A stretch of DNA of 64,000 nt from Gammaproteobacteria bacterium (GCA_020851975.1 JADZBS010000126.1:1-64000), one strand, 5' to 3'. Positions 56,613 through 64,000 are shown, numbered from the stretch's first letter. Program-made: numbers and translations. Notes: generated by a model from the sequence alone, not told the origin.

Positions 56613-56727
56613 GCTGTCCTCGAGGTGGTCGGGCCCGGAGGCGCCATCATAGGAAAAAATGCTATGGTCTGCCGCGCCGGCCGGCAGGACGAATTCCTCG
56701 GCGGCCCCGCACCCGGAGACCGGACCG

Positions 56728-58224
56728 ATGCCCTACCAGGACCTGCGCGAGTTCCTCGCCCACCTCGAACGCGCCGGCCAGTTGCGGCGCGTGAGCGTGA
56801 CATTCGACGTCGGCCGCGGCACCAATGAGTTGCAGGCGCTCATGCGCCATCTGGCCGCCAACGATGGACCGGCGCTGGTGCTCGACAACCTCGTCGGCTG
56901 CAACACGCCGGGCGTGCCGCTGGTCTTCAATCCCTACGGCACGCGCGAGCGTACCGCGATGATCCTCGGCACGAGCGATCCGGTCGAGGCCAAGCTCAGG
57001 CATGTCGGTGTCCTGCAGGATCCCTCGCGCTGGATCAAGCCGCGCCTGGTCGGACGCGGGGAAGCGCCCTGCAAGGACGTCGTGATCCCGCGCGAAGCCG
57101 TCTCGGTCGACCGCCACATCCCGCACGTGTTCTTCGGCCGCGAGGGCGCCTCCTACATCACCGGTGGCGTCGTGGTCACGAAGGACCCCGAGACCGGCGT
57201 GCGCAACGTCGGGGCCTACCGGGCGACGAGTTTCTGGAACGGCCTGCACCCGCAGGGCGGCAGCTACAGCGACGAGCGGATGAAGAAGCAGCTCTCGGTC
57301 TTCGCCTTCTGGAACCCGCCGATGAGTCACATCGGGCTGCACCTGGCCCGGGCGCAGAGGCTCGGCCGGCCGCTCGAGCTTGCGATTGCCTGCCAGGTGG
57401 ACCCGGCGCTGCACCTCGCCAGCGCCACGGGCATTCCCTTCGGTATGGACGAATACGACTACGCCGGCGGGCTGCGTGGTGCCCCGGTGGATCTCGTCTG
57501 CTGCGAGACGGTGGACCTCGAGGTGCCGGCAACCGCGGAGTACGTCATCGAGGGCGTGTTCCGGCCCGACGTGCCGACCGACATCATCGGCTGGCACTCC
57601 AACGCCGTCGGCTACTACGACAAGCACCAGATCTTCCCGGTCTTCGACGTCACCGCGATCACGCACCGGCGCGACCCGCTGTGGTACGGCACCATCGAGA
57701 TGATGCCGCCGTTCGACCACAACTACATGGCGCTCATGCCGGTCGAGGGTGAACTCCTCGCCGACCTGCAACGCAAGATCCCCGAGGTGCGCGACGCGGT
57801 GGTGACACCCAACATGACCTACATCGTGCAGCTTGGCGTGGACGGTGCCGCCAGGCCTCACCCGGAGTTCGGCAAGTACGTGCTGCACGCCGCCTGGGGT
57901 GCGGCCGGCCGCTGGCCGCGCACCGCGAAGATCGTGATCGTGGTGGGTCCGGATGTCGATCCCTACGATCTCGGCGCCGTCGAGTGGGCGATCCAGACGC
58001 GCGTGCAGCCGTGGAGCGACATCATCATCAATCGTGCCGGCCAGGCCATGGTGCTCGACCCCTCGGCACCGAAGGGCCCGCAGGGCTTCCCGACGGTCTC
58101 CGAGCAGATGGGCATCGATGCCACGATCAAGATCCCGGAACGCTTCACCGACTATGCCGAGGTGAGCCAGGCCGATCCCGCGCAGGTCCAGCAGGTGGCT
58201 CGCAAGCTGGCCGGGATCCTGTGA
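56728..58224 (+). CDS. UbiD-family prenyl-FMN-dependent decarboxylase
   Basis: MPYQDLREFLAHLERAGQLRRVSV...ASYITGGVVVTKDPETGVRNVGAYRATSFW...EYVIEGVFRPDV...IVIVVGPDVDPYDLGAVEWAIQTRVQP. Confidence 0.92.
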   Translation: MPYQDLREFLAHLERAGQLRRVSVTFDVGRGTNELQALMRHLAANDGPALVLDNLVGCNTPGVPLVFNPYGTRERTAMILGTSDPVEAKLRHVGVLQDPSRWIKPRLVGRGEAPCKDVVIPREAVSVDRHIPHVFFGREGASYITGGVVVTKDPETGVRNVGAYRATSFWNGLHPQGGSYSDERMKKQLSVFAFWNPPMSHIGLHLARAQRLGRPLELAIACQVDPALHLASATGIPFGMDEYDYAGGLRGAPVDLVCCETVDLEVPATAEYVIEGVFRPDVPTDIIGWHSNAVGYYDKHQIFPVFDVTAITHRRDPLWYGTIEMMPPFDHNYMALMPVEGELLADLQRKIPEVRDAVVTPNMTYIVQLGVDGAARPHPEFGKYVLHAAWGAAGRWPRTAKIVIVVGPDVDPYDLGAVEWAIQTRVQPWSDIIINRAGQAMVLDPSAPKGPQGFPTVSEQMGIDATIKIPERFTDYAEVSQADPAQVQQVARKLAGIL

Positions 58225-58246
58225 CGGGGCGGCCACCACGATTCCC

Positions 58247-59227
58247 ATGACCAGCGCCTGCATCTTCGGGCTCGGTGCCATCGGCGGCGATCTGGCGGCA
58301 CGCCTGGCCTTGTCGGGGGTGCGCGTCACGGCCGTCGCCCGCGGGGCGCAGCTCGCGGCAGTCCGCAGCCACGGCCTCGTCCTCGTCGACCAGGGACGGC
58401 GCGAGACCGTGCAACTGCGCGTCGTAGGCAGTGCGCAGGAGGCCGGGGCCCAGGAACTGGTTTTCCTCACGGTGAAGGCCAACGACCTGCCGGCGCTGGC
58501 CACGGAGCTGCGCCCGCTGCTCACCGCCGACACGCCGGTCGTGACCGTCGGCAACGGCTTCCCGTGGTGGTACTTCCATCGGGCCGGTCCGGGCGGCGTG
58601 AACCCGACGCTCACCAGCGTGGACCCGCGCGGTGCGCTGTGGCGCCTGGTGGGGCCCGAGCACGCCATCGGTTGCGTGGCGTATCCGGCGGTGCGGGTGG
58701 TGCAACCGGGTGTCGTCGAGCACATCTACGGCCGGCGCTTCTCCCTCGGCGAGCCGGACGGCACGATCTCGCCGCGCCTGCAGAAGATCGCGGCGCTCCT
58801 CGTCGCGGCCGGCCTGGAGGCGCCGTTGCGCCAGGACATCCGCACCGAGATCTGGACCAAGCTGGCGCTGAACGCCGCCTACAATCCGGTGAGCGTGCTC
58901 ACCGGCGGGACGCTCGGCCAGATGATCGACGACCTCGGCACGAGCGCCACCCTGCAGGCGATCATGGAGGAGACCACGGCCGTCGCGGCCTCGCTCGGCG
59001 TGCGCATCCCGCTGCAGGCACGCCAGCTCATGGAACTGACCCGGCCGCTGGCCGCGCACAAGACCTCGACGCTGCAGGACCTCGAGGCCGGGCGGCGCAT
59101 CGAGATCGATCCCATCGCCGGCGCCGTGGCCGAACTGGCGCGGCTGCGCAACGTGCGCACGCCGGTCCTCGACGCCGTGCTCGGCATGACGCGGCTGCGC
59201 GCGCGGCTGGCCGGCTGCTACGGCTGA
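58247..59227 (+). CDS. 2-dehydropantoate 2-reductase-like (ApbA/PanE family)
   Basis: MTSACIFGLGAIGGDLAARLALSGVRVTAVARGAQLAAVRSHGLVLVDQ...KLALNAAYNPVSVLTGGTLGQMI. Confidence 0.87.
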   Translation: MTSACIFGLGAIGGDLAARLALSGVRVTAVARGAQLAAVRSHGLVLVDQGRRETVQLRVVGSAQEAGAQELVFLTVKANDLPALATELRPLLTADTPVVTVGNGFPWWYFHRAGPGGVNPTLTSVDPRGALWRLVGPEHAIGCVAYPAVRVVQPGVVEHIYGRRFSLGEPDGTISPRLQKIAALLVAAGLEAPLRQDIRTEIWTKLALNAAYNPVSVLTGGTLGQMIDDLGTSATLQAIMEETTAVAASLGVRIPLQARQLMELTRPLAAHKTSTLQDLEAGRRIEIDPIAGAVAELARLRNVRTPVLDAVLGMTRLRARLAGCYG

Positions 59228-59913
59228 TGCGTCTCGCGCGCTTCTCCGCCGTCGTCCTCGTCCTGCTGCCCGTGGCAGCGCGCGCGGCGCTGCCGGCACC
59301 GGAATCATCGGCCTTCTGCGTGGCCGTGCAGAGGGTCCTCGCCGGAACCACGCTCGAGAGCCACAACACGGTCTTCGACACCATGGAGGCGTTCCGTCAG
59401 TCGAAGCCGTCCGCGAAGCCGCTGCGGACCTACCAGGTCGTGACCTATGCGGGTCGCCAGCCGATCATGGTCTCCTGCAAGGTGAAGACAGCCGCGCACC
59501 TGCGTGCCACCTATGGGGCCGATGCAGCCGGCGAGCAGCGTTACTGCCCGGACGTGACGCGCCAGGTGCGGGCCGGGGCCGTGGCCCGGCTGCGGCAGGC
59601 GGGGAACGCCGCCGCGGCGGCGCGCGCGGCCGCGTTCGTCGTCGACGCCGATGAGCCCTACTGGACCGGTCGCTCCTTTCTCGCCGAATTCCAGCTGAGC
59701 TACCGGGGTGCGGATGGCGCCATCCACATCCGCTCGCCGGGCCTCTACCAGGACTACGACCACTGGATCACGCGCCTGCTGCCCGAACGCCTGCAGGGGC
59801 AGAGCTATTGCCACCTGGCCACCGCGGGCTATCTCGAAGCGCTTGCCACCGGTGCCGAGGCACCCGGCACCACCGTGACAGGGGCGGTCGATGCGCCGGT
59901 GACGCCGCGGTAG
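59227..59913 (+). CDS. Secreted hypothetical protein
   Basis: Signal peptide MRLARFSAVVLVLLPVAARAALPAPESSAFC; no family recognised by eye; ATG follows panE-like stop directly. Confidence 0.65.
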   Translation: MRLARFSAVVLVLLPVAARAALPAPESSAFCVAVQRVLAGTTLESHNTVFDTMEAFRQSKPSAKPLRTYQVVTYAGRQPIMVSCKVKTAAHLRATYGADAAGEQRYCPDVTRQVRAGAVARLRQAGNAAAAARAAAFVVDADEPYWTGRSFLAEFQLSYRGADGAIHIRSPGLYQDYDHWITRLLPERLQGQSYCHLATAGYLEALATGAEAPGTTVTGAVDAPVTPR

Positions 59914-60112
59914 GGCGCGACGTGCCCGGGACTCATCGATCCGGCGCCGGCTTTCCGGACTGCTCACCGGCTCTTGCCGTGTTGCGGTCCCTGCCACGGC
60001 AGCGGACAATTCGCGCCTGGGCGTGACGATCTCCGCGGGTGATCCGGCCGGCAGCGCGATGGATGTGCAGTGCCGCGGGTATGGCCATGTCATTCCTGAT
60101 GTATTGTTATCG

Positions 60113-60138
60113 ATGACTATCAATATCTTGTGAGTCAT
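60113..60138. promoter_or_regulatory. Inverted repeat ATGACT-N14-AGTCAT in AT-rich leader of the phosphonate operon; candidate operator
   Basis: tattgttatcgatgactatcaatatcttgtgagtcatatc directly upstream of the dioxygenase gene. Confidence 0.35.
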
Positions 60139-60151
60139 ATCTGAGGTGGTC

Positions 60152-60931
60152 ATGCAGCAAGTCTCCGCCGTCCGTGGCGATCCGCTGACGCCGGAGGTGG
60201 TAGCCACCTTCCACCGCGACGGCTACGTCGTCGTGCCGCGGCTGTTCAGCACCGTCGAGGCTGCCGACATCGCGCGCTGGACCGACGAGGTGCAGCGCTG
60301 GCCGGAGACGGCCGGGCGCCACATGATGTATTTCGAGCAGCGTGCCGATGGCGCCCGCCTGCTGAATCGCCTGGAGAACCTGCTGCCATACCACGACCGC
60401 CTGCGCGCGCTTGCCATGGGCGAGCGCCTGCTCGGCGCCTGCGCCCAGCTCTTCGGCGAGCCGGCCGTGCTCTTCAAGGACAAGATCAACTTCAAGCTGC
60501 CGGGTGGTGGCGGCTTCGAGCCGCACCAGGACGTGCAGGCGGGCTGGAGCCGCTACGCGAGTCTGCACATCACGGCGCTCGTGACCGTGGACCGGGCCAC
60601 GATCGCCAACGGCTGCCTGGAGATGGCCAGCGGGTTTCGTGGTGCGCACCGGCTGATCGGACGCGAATGGGAGCCGCTCGGGCCCGCCGATCTCGCCGGT
60701 CTCGACTGGCTGCCGATCGAGGCCGAGCCGGGTGATGCCGTGTTCTTCGACTCCTTCGTGCCGCATCGCTCGGCGCCGAACGCCACCGACGCCCCGCGAC
60801 GCGTGCTCTACCTGACCTACAACCGGGCTGCCGAGGGCGATCACCTCGCGCAGTACTACGCCGACAAGCGCGCCAGCTATCCGCCCGACATCGAGCGGCT
60901 GCCCGGCCGCGAGTACCGCTACCGCGTCTGA
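60152..60931 (+). CDS. Phytanoyl-CoA dioxygenase (PhyH) family Fe(II)/2-oxoglutarate oxygenase, phosphonate-cluster associated
   Basis: Metal motif H-Q-D ([11 protein letters not shown]) with distal His/Arg ([24 protein letters not shown]). Confidence 0.88.
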
Positions 60932-60947
60932 GGCCCGAGCATCGTCC

Positions 60948-62606
60948 ATGGTTGCCCATCTCCAGCCCCCCGTTCCCGAGCGCCCGCGTCGTACCACACG
61001 GTTCCGCGAGTTGCTGCACGGGAGCGACCTCGAGTTCCTGCTCGAAGCGCACAACGGCATCAGCGCCCGCATCGGCGAGGAGGCGGGCTTCAAGGCCCTG
61101 TGGGCCGGGGGGCTGTGCATGTCCGCGCAGTTCGGCGTGCGCGACAGCAACGAGGCGTCCTGGACGCAGGTCCTGGAGATGCTCGAGTTCATGGTCGACG
61201 CCACGACCATCCCGATCCTGCTCGACGGCGACACGGGCTACGGCAACTTCAACAACGTGCGCCGCCTGGTGCGCAAGCTCGAGCAGCGCGGCGTGGCCGC
61301 CGTATGCATCGAGGACAAGCTGTACCCGAAGACCAACAGCTTCATCGACGGCGACAGGCAGCAGCTCGCCGACATCGAGGAGTTCTGCAGCCGCATCAAG
61401 GCCGGCAAGGACGCGCAGCGCGACGACGATTTCGCCATCATCACCCGCGTCGAGGCCTTCATCGCCGGCTGGGGCCTTGCCGAGGCGCTGCGCCGGGCCG
61501 AGGCCTACCATGCCGCCGGTTCCGACGGCATCCTCATCCACAGCGCGCTTGCCACGCCGAAGGAGGTGCTCGCCTTCAAGCGCGAGTGGGCGGACCGCAG
61601 CCCCGTGGTGATCGTGCCGACCAAGTATTACGCCACGCCCACCGAGGTGTTCCGCGAGGCCGGCTTCTCGCTCGTCATCTGGGCCAACCACCTGCTGCGC
61701 GCGGCGATTCCCGCGATGCAGGAGTGCGCCGCGACGCTGGCGCGCGAGCAGAACCTGCGTTCGATCGAGGACCGCGTCGCGCCGGTGAAGGAAATCTTCC
61801 GCCTGCAGGGCGCGAGCGAGCTGCAGGAGGCCGAGGACCGCTACCTGCCGCGCCAGGGGCGCGATGCCCGCGTGATCGTGCTGGCGGCCTCGCGCGGCTC
61901 GGCCCTCGGCGAACTCACTGCCGACCGTCCGAAGGCCATGGTGGAAATCCGTGGCCAGCCGCTGCTCGCCCACATCGTCGCCGCCTACAACGCCGCCGGC
62001 ATCAAGCGCATCACCGTGGTGCGCGGCTACCTGCCCGCGGCGATCGACCTGCCGGGGCTCGCCTACGTCGACAATCCCGACTACGCCGACACCGGCGAGC
62101 TGGTGTCGCTCGAGCGCGCGCTGGCCGCGCCGGATCCGGACGGGGGCGGCGATCTCTACGTCTCCTACGGCGATGTCATCTTCAAGCGTTACCTTCTCGA
62201 CACGCTCGCCGAGCCGGCCGATGATTTCGTGATCGTCGCCGACACCGACTGGCGCGCCTCGGTGAACCGCGCTCGCGCCGCCGACTACGTCGCCTGCACC
62301 GAACCGCACTCGCGCCACGCCTTCTACCGCGAGGTCTATCTCACGCGCTGTGCCGAAGACATCTCCGAGGGCGAGTGTCATGGCGAGTGGATGGGCCTGC
62401 TCAAGGTGAATGCCCGCGCCGTGCCGCGGCTGCGGGAACTCGTCTCGCAGATGGCGGCCACGCCCGGGCACCGCCGCGCCAAGCTGCACCATCTGCTGAC
62501 GGCGCTCGTCGCCCGCGGCGAGAAGGTGCGCGTGGTCTACACCACGGGCCACTGGCTCGACGTCGACAGTCTCGCCGACGTGCTGGCCGCCGGACGTTTC
62601 GCATGA
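60948..62606 (+). CDS. pepM: Fused phosphoenolpyruvate mutase / NTP-transferase (PepM-PntC type)
   Basis: [23 protein letters not shown]...[68 protein letters not shown] (EDKX5NS), then [44 protein letters not shown] nucleotidyltransferase domain. Confidence 0.95.
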
Positions 62607-62652
62607 GCGCGACCGTGGTGGCCGTCGGCAGGCTGGCCGCAGGCGGGCGCGC

Positions 62653-63813
62653 GTGATCGAAGCGGGCGAGTTCGTCGCGGCGGCCACCGCCCGCGGCTTC
62701 GGGCTGTGGACGGGCGTGCCCTGTTCCTACCTCACGCCGTTCATCAATCACGTGCTGGCGGCGCCCGGCCTGCGTTATGTCGGCGCTGCCAACGAAGGCG
62801 ACGCCGTGGCGATCGCGGCCGGGGCGGAGCTCGGCGGGCTGCCGGCCATTGCCATGTTCCAGAACTCGGGTCTCGGTAATGCCGTCAATCCGCTGACCTC
62901 GCTCACCTGGACCTTTCGCATCCCGGTGCTGCTGATCGTCACCTGGCGGGGCGAGCCGGGCGGGGCTCCCGACGAACCGCAGCACGAGCTCATGGGCGAG
63001 GTCACGCCGCGCCTGCTCGAGCTGATGAACATCCCCTGGACACCGTTCCCGCGCACCGCTGCCGACATCGCGCCGGCACTCGACCGTGCCGCCACGCAGC
63101 TCGGCACCGAGCGACGCCCTTTCGCGCTCGTCATGAGCAAGGGTGCGGTGGCCGGGAGCGACCTCGTGCCGAAACTCCCGGACGCACCGGCGCGACGCGC
63201 GGGCACCGGCATGGCTGGCGAAGCCTTCGCGACCCGCCGGCAGATGCTCGCCGCCGTGCAGGCCGCGCTCAAGCAGGACGACGTGGTGGTCGCCACCACC
63301 GGCTACATGGGTCGCGAGCTCTACGCCCTCGGCGACCGGCCGTGCCAGCTCTACATGGTCGGCTCGATGGGCTGCGCGGCGAGCTTCGGGCTCGGGCTCG
63401 CCCTGGCGCGGCCCGACCGGCGCGTGGTGGTGATCGACGGCGACGGCGCCGCGCTGATGCGCCTCGGCGCTCTTGCCACGCTCGGTGCCGAACGACCGGC
63501 GAACCTGCTGCACCTGCTGTTCGACAACGGTATGCACGAGTCCACCGGCGGGCAGGCGACGGTCTCGCCGATGATCGACTGGCGCGCCATCGCCGCGGCC
63601 TGCGGCTACCGGCGCGTGCTCTCGGCCAGCGAGCCCGATGAACTGCGTGAACTGGTCGACTGGCGCGCCCCGGGCCTGGGCTTCATCCACGTGCCCATCC
63701 GTCCCGGCGTGCCCGACGGCCTGCCGCGGCCGACCATCACGCCGGAGCAGGTCGCGGCGCGGCTGCGTGCGCACCTCGGGCCGCGCACCGACTTCCCGCC
63801 GGCGTCGCGATGA
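62653..63813 (+). CDS. Phosphonopyruvate decarboxylase
   Basis: GEFVAAATARGFGLWTGVPCSYLTPFINHVL...YVGAANEGDAVAIAAGAELGG...MFQNSGLGNAVNPLTSL...VIDGDGAALMRLGALATLGAERPANLLHLLFDNGMHESTGGQ (TPP motif). Confidence 0.94.
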   Translation: MIEAGEFVAAATARGFGLWTGVPCSYLTPFINHVLAAPGLRYVGAANEGDAVAIAAGAELGGLPAIAMFQNSGLGNAVNPLTSLTWTFRIPVLLIVTWRGEPGGAPDEPQHELMGEVTPRLLELMNIPWTPFPRTAADIAPALDRAATQLGTERRPFALVMSKGAVAGSDLVPKLPDAPARRAGTGMAGEAFATRRQMLAAVQAALKQDDVVVATTGYMGRELYALGDRPCQLYMVGSMGCAASFGLGLALARPDRRVVVIDGDGAALMRLGALATLGAERPANLLHLLFDNGMHESTGGQATVSPMIDWRAIAAACGYRRVLSASEPDELRELVDWRAPGLGFIHVPIRPGVPDGLPRPTITPEQVAARLRAHLGPRTDFPPASR

Positions 63814-64000
63814 GCGAACGCACGCTGCTGCTGAACCCGGGCCCGGTGACGCTGAGCGAGCGGGTGCGCCGTGCGCTGGTCCGGGGCGACTGGTGCCATC
63901 GCGAGCCGGAGTTCGCGGCGCTGGTCCGGGACATCGATGCGCGCCTGGCCGCCGTCTACGAGGACCTCGCCGGCCGGTACGAGGCCGTGGTCCTTACCGG
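63810..64000 (+). CDS. phnW: 2-aminoethylphosphonate-pyruvate transaminase (N-terminal part, truncated by window edge)
   Basis: MSERTLLLNPGPVTLSERVRRALVRGDWCHREPEFAALVRDIDARLAAVYEDLAGRYEAVVLTG; ATGA overlap with upstream gene. Confidence 0.88.
   Translation, partial: MSERTLLLNPGPVTLSERVRRALVRGDWCHREPEFAALVRDIDARLAAVYEDLAGRYEAVVLT

Follow-up and report, generated by a model that had tools for sequence, protein, structure and literature searches.

The window, the whole stretch of 64,000 bases analyzed here, is the start of a 76,317-base contig (contig 126) in the draft genome of an uncultured gammaproteobacterium (2.85 Mb, 150 contigs), whose near relatives are MAGs with the label Chromatiales or Gammaproteobacteria bacterium. 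A ten-gene operon on a single strand (+) begins at 60146 and extends beyond the window end, as seen on reading the contig to 76,317. The genes that begin within the window encode a PhyH-family Fe(II)/2-oxoglutarate oxygenase (60146–60931); a PEP mutase (PepM, approximately residues 12–302) followed in the same protein by a nucleotidyltransferase-like domain (approximately residues 306–552) that lacks the arginine of the GxGxR motif (60948–62606); a phosphonopyruvate decarboxylase, Ppd (62653–63813); and a 2-aminoethylphosphonate (AEP) transaminase, AEPT (63810–64910, of which the window holds the first 191 bases, 63810–64000), with intergenic gaps of 16, 46, and −4 bp. The genes beyond 64000 lie on the same strand with gaps of −4 to +47 bp and encode, in contig coordinates, a separate PntC of 256 aa (P0005; 64907–65677), a 91-aa membrane protein that keeps its place among relatives (65725–66000), a 129-aa remnant of an FkbM-like methyltransferase (66005–66394; L003:6006–6395), a TagF/TarL-like transferase of 393 aa (P0006; 66404–67585), a YejM-like DUF3413-sulfatase protein (67588–69381), and a second YidC (69378–70838). 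The initial annotation described PhyH, the PepM fusion, Ppd, and the start of AEPT as closely spaced on one strand, and this is borne out by reading frames that are open as far as the window reaches and by matches to PF05721, TIGR02320, TIGR03297, and TIGR03301 that greatly exceed chance expectation; the ATG at 60152 that it took as the PhyH start lies in frame within the ORF. Consensus promoter and terminator scans yielded nothing useful at 70% GC.

The operon order was found again in approximately 30 related genomes and also in small genomes from another family of the order, and the series composed of the PepM fusion, Ppd, AEPT, PntC, the 91-aa protein, the transferase, the YejM-like protein, and the second YidC is kept in most loci of sufficient length. 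The methyltransferase gene that separates the 91-aa protein from the transferase has about half its full length in this genome, with open frames of 259–268 aa in L034 and L041. Directly upstream of the operon are UbiD-like and PanE-like genes (56659–59227), and a UbiD-like gene also adjoins the PepM fusion in relatives from another family of the order. Between PanE and PhyH or PepM, relatives have an aconitase-type pair of large and small subunits and an isocitrate-lyase-family enzyme (L051:16113–18753), in place of which the window genome encodes a 228-aa protein with no Pfam match (59227–60146).

PepM, Ppd, and AEPT all exceed curated NCBIfam cut-offs (386 bits against 319.6 for TIGR02320 in the PepM half, 422 against 312.5 for TIGR03297, and 366.6 against 360.8 for TIGR03301). 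The PepM half matches mussel PEP mutase with an E-value of 4e-123, and the 10-residue EDKX5NS signature reported by the initial annotation is present in the ORF (61311–61340), with residues E122–K124, N130, and S131 invariant in an alignment of relatives. The segment GVRDSNEAS aligns gap-free with the mussel enzyme at the Asp mutated in the D58A structure, and Asp66 is invariant. The PhyH protein (PF05721, E = 1e-22) has likely iron ligands in HQD at residue 127 and PHRSAPN at residue 206, and its top NCBIfam model is methylphosphonate hydroxylase (NF052437), at 200 bits, far under the cut-off of 500; from its sequence, it is probably a phosphonate hydroxylase. Because many relatives are without PhyH, we regard it as an accessory step. 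In other proteobacteria (L131, L136, L138, and L152), PhyH relatives with 45–52% identity adjoin PepM fusions in divergent orientation, so the link between PhyH and PepM extends more widely than the clade of the window genome. Searches of the genome identified neither PhnJ nor a phosphonatase above cut-off, and we rejected a catabolic role for AEPT on that basis.

The nucleotidyltransferase domain fused to PEP mutase and the separate PntC

By sequence comparison, P0005 is an orthologue of Treponema denticola PntC: it aligns end to end with this enzyme (6pd1; E = 3.7e-46, residues 6–244), and its Arg17, Lys27, and Glu107, which correspond to Arg15, Lys25, and Glu104 of PntC, are invariant, with Lys at the T/S position of the motif. 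Synthesis of CMP-AEP by T. denticola PntC has been demonstrated (PMC6697681). In all 12 genomes searched, ten of them from the Nitrospira group, Ppd and AEPT have beside them a stand-alone PntC-like gene whose loop is intact. Ten Nitrospira-group genomes (L178–L187) have, in addition to and away from the PepM fusion gene, a second locus that comprises Ppd, AEPT, and an intact PntC-like gene.

The initial annotation had described the domain that follows PepM as sugar-nucleotidyltransferase-like; the domain is NTP-transferase-like at the level of family (PF12804, residues 309–432, 52 bits against a cut-off of 27), but its catalytic loop is without the conserved Arg. The PntC motif GXG(T/S)RX4-8PK, which includes the catalytic Arg15 and Lys25, is absent from the fused domain; its 18-residue loop (61881–61934) contains LAASRGSAL, in which SRGSA replaces GXG(T/S)R, and retains the PK, whereas the corresponding loop in PntC reads LAAGQGKRLREVVEGYPK. 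Given that a profile alignment of the fused and PntC families is gap-free at the loop, the GxGxR Arg is Ala in the fusion (Gly to Ser at motif position 1 and Arg to Ala at position 5). The Arg is found in none of 119 fused loci, a set that includes some genomes twice; Glu, Ala, Gly, Asp, Ser, or Gln stands at this position and, in one locus, Lys. These loci span Gammaproteobacteria, Nitrospira, Spirochaetales, Gemmatimonadota, Myxococcota, Verrucomicrobiota, Planctomycetota, Cyanobacteria, and others. Since they were chosen by likeness to the window protein, we drew a second, independent sample of 398 genomes taken evenly from the phylum, with the nucleotidyltransferase domain alone as query. 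In this sample, the Arg is absent from all 12 PepM fusions, and in 8 of these the W-x-E/D site has no acidic residue either, whereas the 14 stand-alone proteins scored retain both residues (p = 1e-7); one more stand-alone hit (L205) falls outside the motif pattern and was left out of the scoring. Several fusions, including that of Paraburkholderia, have HWRGVN at the W-x-E/D site. The Lys of PK, the GD aspartate, and a Gly-x-Trp-x-Gly segment are invariant in 28 diverse fused members, and the fused domain is more variable than PepM (mean pairwise identity of 42% versus 70%). In our tree, all fused domains fall on one side of a single branch with modest support (67/99). A Foldseek search with a model of the full fusion returned PEP mutase-superfamily structures alone among the 50 matches listed and is uninformative on the nucleotidyltransferase domain.

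Both the initial annotation and the 2019 survey viewed the fused domain as an active PntC, in which case the separate nucleotidyltransferase would use another substrate, for example hydroxy-AEP. Activity would be consistent with the membership in PF12804, the conservation of the domain across phyla, and the retention of the PK lysine and GD aspartate in all 28 aligned members, and the adjacent, nearly invariant Arg of SRG could substitute for the one that is missing. However, the loss of the GxGxR Arg extends to every fusion examined, that of the W-x-E/D acid to two thirds of the sampled ones, and the R15A substitution leaves T. denticola PntC with less than 10% activity (PMC6697681); moreover, the operon itself contains the closer PntC orthologue, separate and intact, directly after AEPT. 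The three clusters of Rice et al. each carry a fused and a separate nucleotidyltransferase, and the assayed enzymes, Ari1348 and Tde1415, are those separate from PepM (PMC6697681). Judging from the motif loss, we consider it unlikely that the fused domain is the activating enzyme and depart from the initial annotation on this point; the domain is probably not a working PntC. We hypothesize instead that this nucleotidyltransferase is catalytically degenerate yet maintained by selection, and not simply decaying, and that within PEP mutase it most likely binds a ligand or has a regulatory function, with ligand sensing for the mutase as a guess at its role. Because the fused domain still has PK, the GD aspartate, and, in many members, a W-x-D site, it may have residual or altered catalytic activity. 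In the open-access literature, we found no paper that addresses whether the fused PF12804 domain is active.

The TagF/TarL-like transferase and its neighboring membrane proteins

P0006 alone has no match in Pfam (E 0.001) or in single-sequence searches of the PDB, and it does not reach the cut-off of PF04464. This family is matched by 9 of 10 P0006 relatives scanned singly (best E-value 1.4e-12), with 22.5 bits against a cut-off of 22.1 in L079; a separate scan of L089 gave 43.4 bits. A profile search of the PDB identified TarL (1.4e-5) and TagF (0.0023). The L079 orthologue, which is 62% identical to P0006, was modelled with a pLDDT of 91.5; the model has a TagF-like GT-B fold, its best PDB match being TagF with CDP-glycerol (E = 1.9e-11, TM approximately 0.57), and the matches that follow include a capsule synthase with bound CMP. 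An assignment of the transferase to an unknown family was dropped after the Pfam scans of relatives, the profile search, and the model. His123 and His232 of P0006 are invariant in the family and may be TagF-type catalytic histidines. TagF transfers glycerol-phosphate from CDP-glycerol, and because CMP-AEP is chemically akin to CDP-glycerol, a TagF-type reaction would place AEP on a hydroxyl. From sequence and model, P0006 is a likely candidate for the enzyme that puts CMP-activated phosphonate onto the cell surface, and its gene lies beyond position 64000, where a transferase had been anticipated. Our search of the open-access literature returned no description of a phosphonate transferase from PF04464. 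In a Spirochaeta MAG (L089), a single protein contains both the 91-aa segment and the transferase, and the same fusion is seen again in L172–L174.

The YejM-like protein, the sole DUF3413 protein found in the genome, is composed of DUF3413 (PF11893, 1.2e-44) and sulfatase (PF00884, 2.7e-20) domains and scores 214 bits with NF038282, whose cut-off is 825. The YidC encoded in the operon matches PF02096 (9e-27; 94.5 bits against 35) and falls under the equivalog cut-offs of full YidC models. Two proteins of the YidC family are encoded in the genome (G000:C43:2813–3349 and contig 126:70221–70805), the operon copy being the weaker match; given the stronger match on contig 43, we regard the operon YidC as a second copy. 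In the Spirochaeta MAG, the YidC domain is part of a 770-aa protein with a long C-terminal part that is sulfatase-like by eye and has no Pfam match, and long YidC proteins are also present in L173 and L174.

AEP lipids are known from other organisms, and the YejM family is tied to the envelope in E. coli. Both would fit a phosphonate that ends in a phospholipid through an ordinary CDP-alcohol phosphotransferase, the TagF-like enzyme then doing something else. The gene content argues otherwise: the initial annotation had suggested looking past 64000 for either a CDP-alcohol-transferase-like or a glycan phosphonotransferase gene, and the operon as read shows no CDP-alcohol phosphotransferase; the conserved gene that follows PntC and the 91-aa protein encodes the TagF/TarL-type transferase. 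We consider a phosphonolipid made by such an ordinary phosphotransferase improbable.

Of 40 genomes from the family of the window genome, 29 encode the transferase together with the PepM fusion and 9 encode neither, with one discordant genome of each kind (p = 4e-7). Outside the clade, L171 and L174 have the transferase beside Ppd and a PepM of another type (N-terminal domain PF01467-like by eye), and in L167–L170 the transferase module lies beside intact stand-alone nucleotidyltransferases, with PepM absent from the stretch read. These last four loci could indicate that the TagF-like enzyme, the 91-aa protein, the YejM-like protein, and the second YidC form an independent surface module that uses another donor and merely neighbors the phosphonate genes. 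However, the strong co-occurrence and fixed order with the PepM fusion, Ppd, AEPT, and PntC in this family, together with the linkage in L171 and L174 to a PepM of another type, make such independence quite unlikely in our estimation. The presence of the module beside nucleotidyltransferases in stretches without PepM does imply that the donor need not be CMP-AEP, and from its varied PepM and nucleotidyltransferase neighbors we posit that the module may attach CMP-linked groups generally, with the donor set by the neighboring genes. At L175, as at L167–L170, the transferase is close to stand-alone nucleotidyltransferases whose GxGxR loop is intact, and PepM is absent from the stretch read; some neighbors in these five loci are PEP-synthase-type by eye. 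PepM, Ppd, and a PhyH oxygenase also begin known natural-product pathways, which would accord with a diffusible product such as an antibiotic, but the remaining genes of the operon encode a transferase and envelope-type membrane proteins, and we give this possibility very little credence.

Proposed pathway and relation to known systems

We favor, with moderate confidence, a cell-surface phosphonate operon in which AEP is made, activated by the separate PntC, and attached by the TagF-like enzyme, and in which the domain fused to PepM is degenerate; the substrates, the acceptor, and the role of the fused domain are those that we infer. As expected from their families, PEP mutase, Ppd, and the transaminase would convert PEP to AEP; the probable role of PhyH is hydroxylation of AEP or of a later form. 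The separate PntC, and not the fused domain, would convert AEP and CTP to CMP-AEP, based on its orthology to an assayed enzyme. Fold and gene context suggest that the TagF/TarL-like enzyme transfers the phosphonyl group from CMP-AEP to a glycan or lipid hydroxyl, by analogy with the reaction of TagF with CDP-glycerol. A probable role for the 91-aa membrane protein is to anchor this transferase, and the YejM-like protein and second YidC may act in later membrane steps. The broader proposal of the initial annotation, that AEP is made, CMP-activated, and directed to the surface, thus appears likely from the family cut-offs, the PntC orthology, and the relationship of the transferase.

We regard the operon as a variation on the known Pnt clusters. 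Like the Pnt clusters of T. denticola, Atopobium rimae, and Olsenella uli (Rice et al. 2019, PMC6697681), it has a PepM with a fused nucleotidyltransferase, Ppd, AEPT, and a separate PntC-type cytidylyltransferase, with a proposed surface use. LicD-like phosphotransferases or glycosyltransferases are named as neighbors in those clusters, whereas the operon described here has the TagF/TarL-like transferase, the 91-aa protein, the YejM-like protein, the second YidC, and PhyH; in addition, the fused domain is a nucleotidyltransferase in Rice et al. and degenerate in our reading. The TagF/TarL wall teichoic acid polymerases (PF04464) have the same fold as the operon enzyme but are a distant family, and transfer of a CMP-linked group to a hydroxyl would be shared; the operon enzyme has approximately 14% identity over the fold match, is shorter, belongs to a Gram-negative phosphonate operon, and in the window genome scores below the Pfam cut-off. 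The E. coli YejM/LapC/PbgA protein shares the DUF3413 membrane part and sulfatase-type domain, whereas the operon protein scores far below the equivalog cut-off, is encoded in a phosphonate operon, and has conserved likely metal-site residues. Fom1 of Streptomyces wedmorensis, as cited in PMC6697681, likewise has a cytidylyltransferase-type domain on PEP mutase; according to that citation, the Fom1 domain is N-terminal, belongs to PF01467, and is active, in contrast to the C-terminal PF12804 domain with a broken loop described here.

To a specialist, the surprising part is the altered fused domain across phyla. The 2019 survey built its case for widespread nucleotidyl activation partly from fusions of PepM to PF12804, which make up approximately one third of all PepM (PMC6697681). 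If the fused domain is catalytically dead, such fusions are no proof of activation, for which the separate genes are the evidence, and PepM would bear an unstudied sensor or partner domain. Tentatively, and with less confidence than in the operon reading above, the PF12804 domain on about a third of PEP mutases could be a pseudo-nucleotidyltransferase that senses CTP or CMP-phosphonate and exerts feedback control of C–P bond formation in several phyla, with the TagF-like family being the missing phosphonyl transferase of one Pnt branch. The operon supplies a concrete candidate for the step that places CMP-activated phosphonate on the cell surface.
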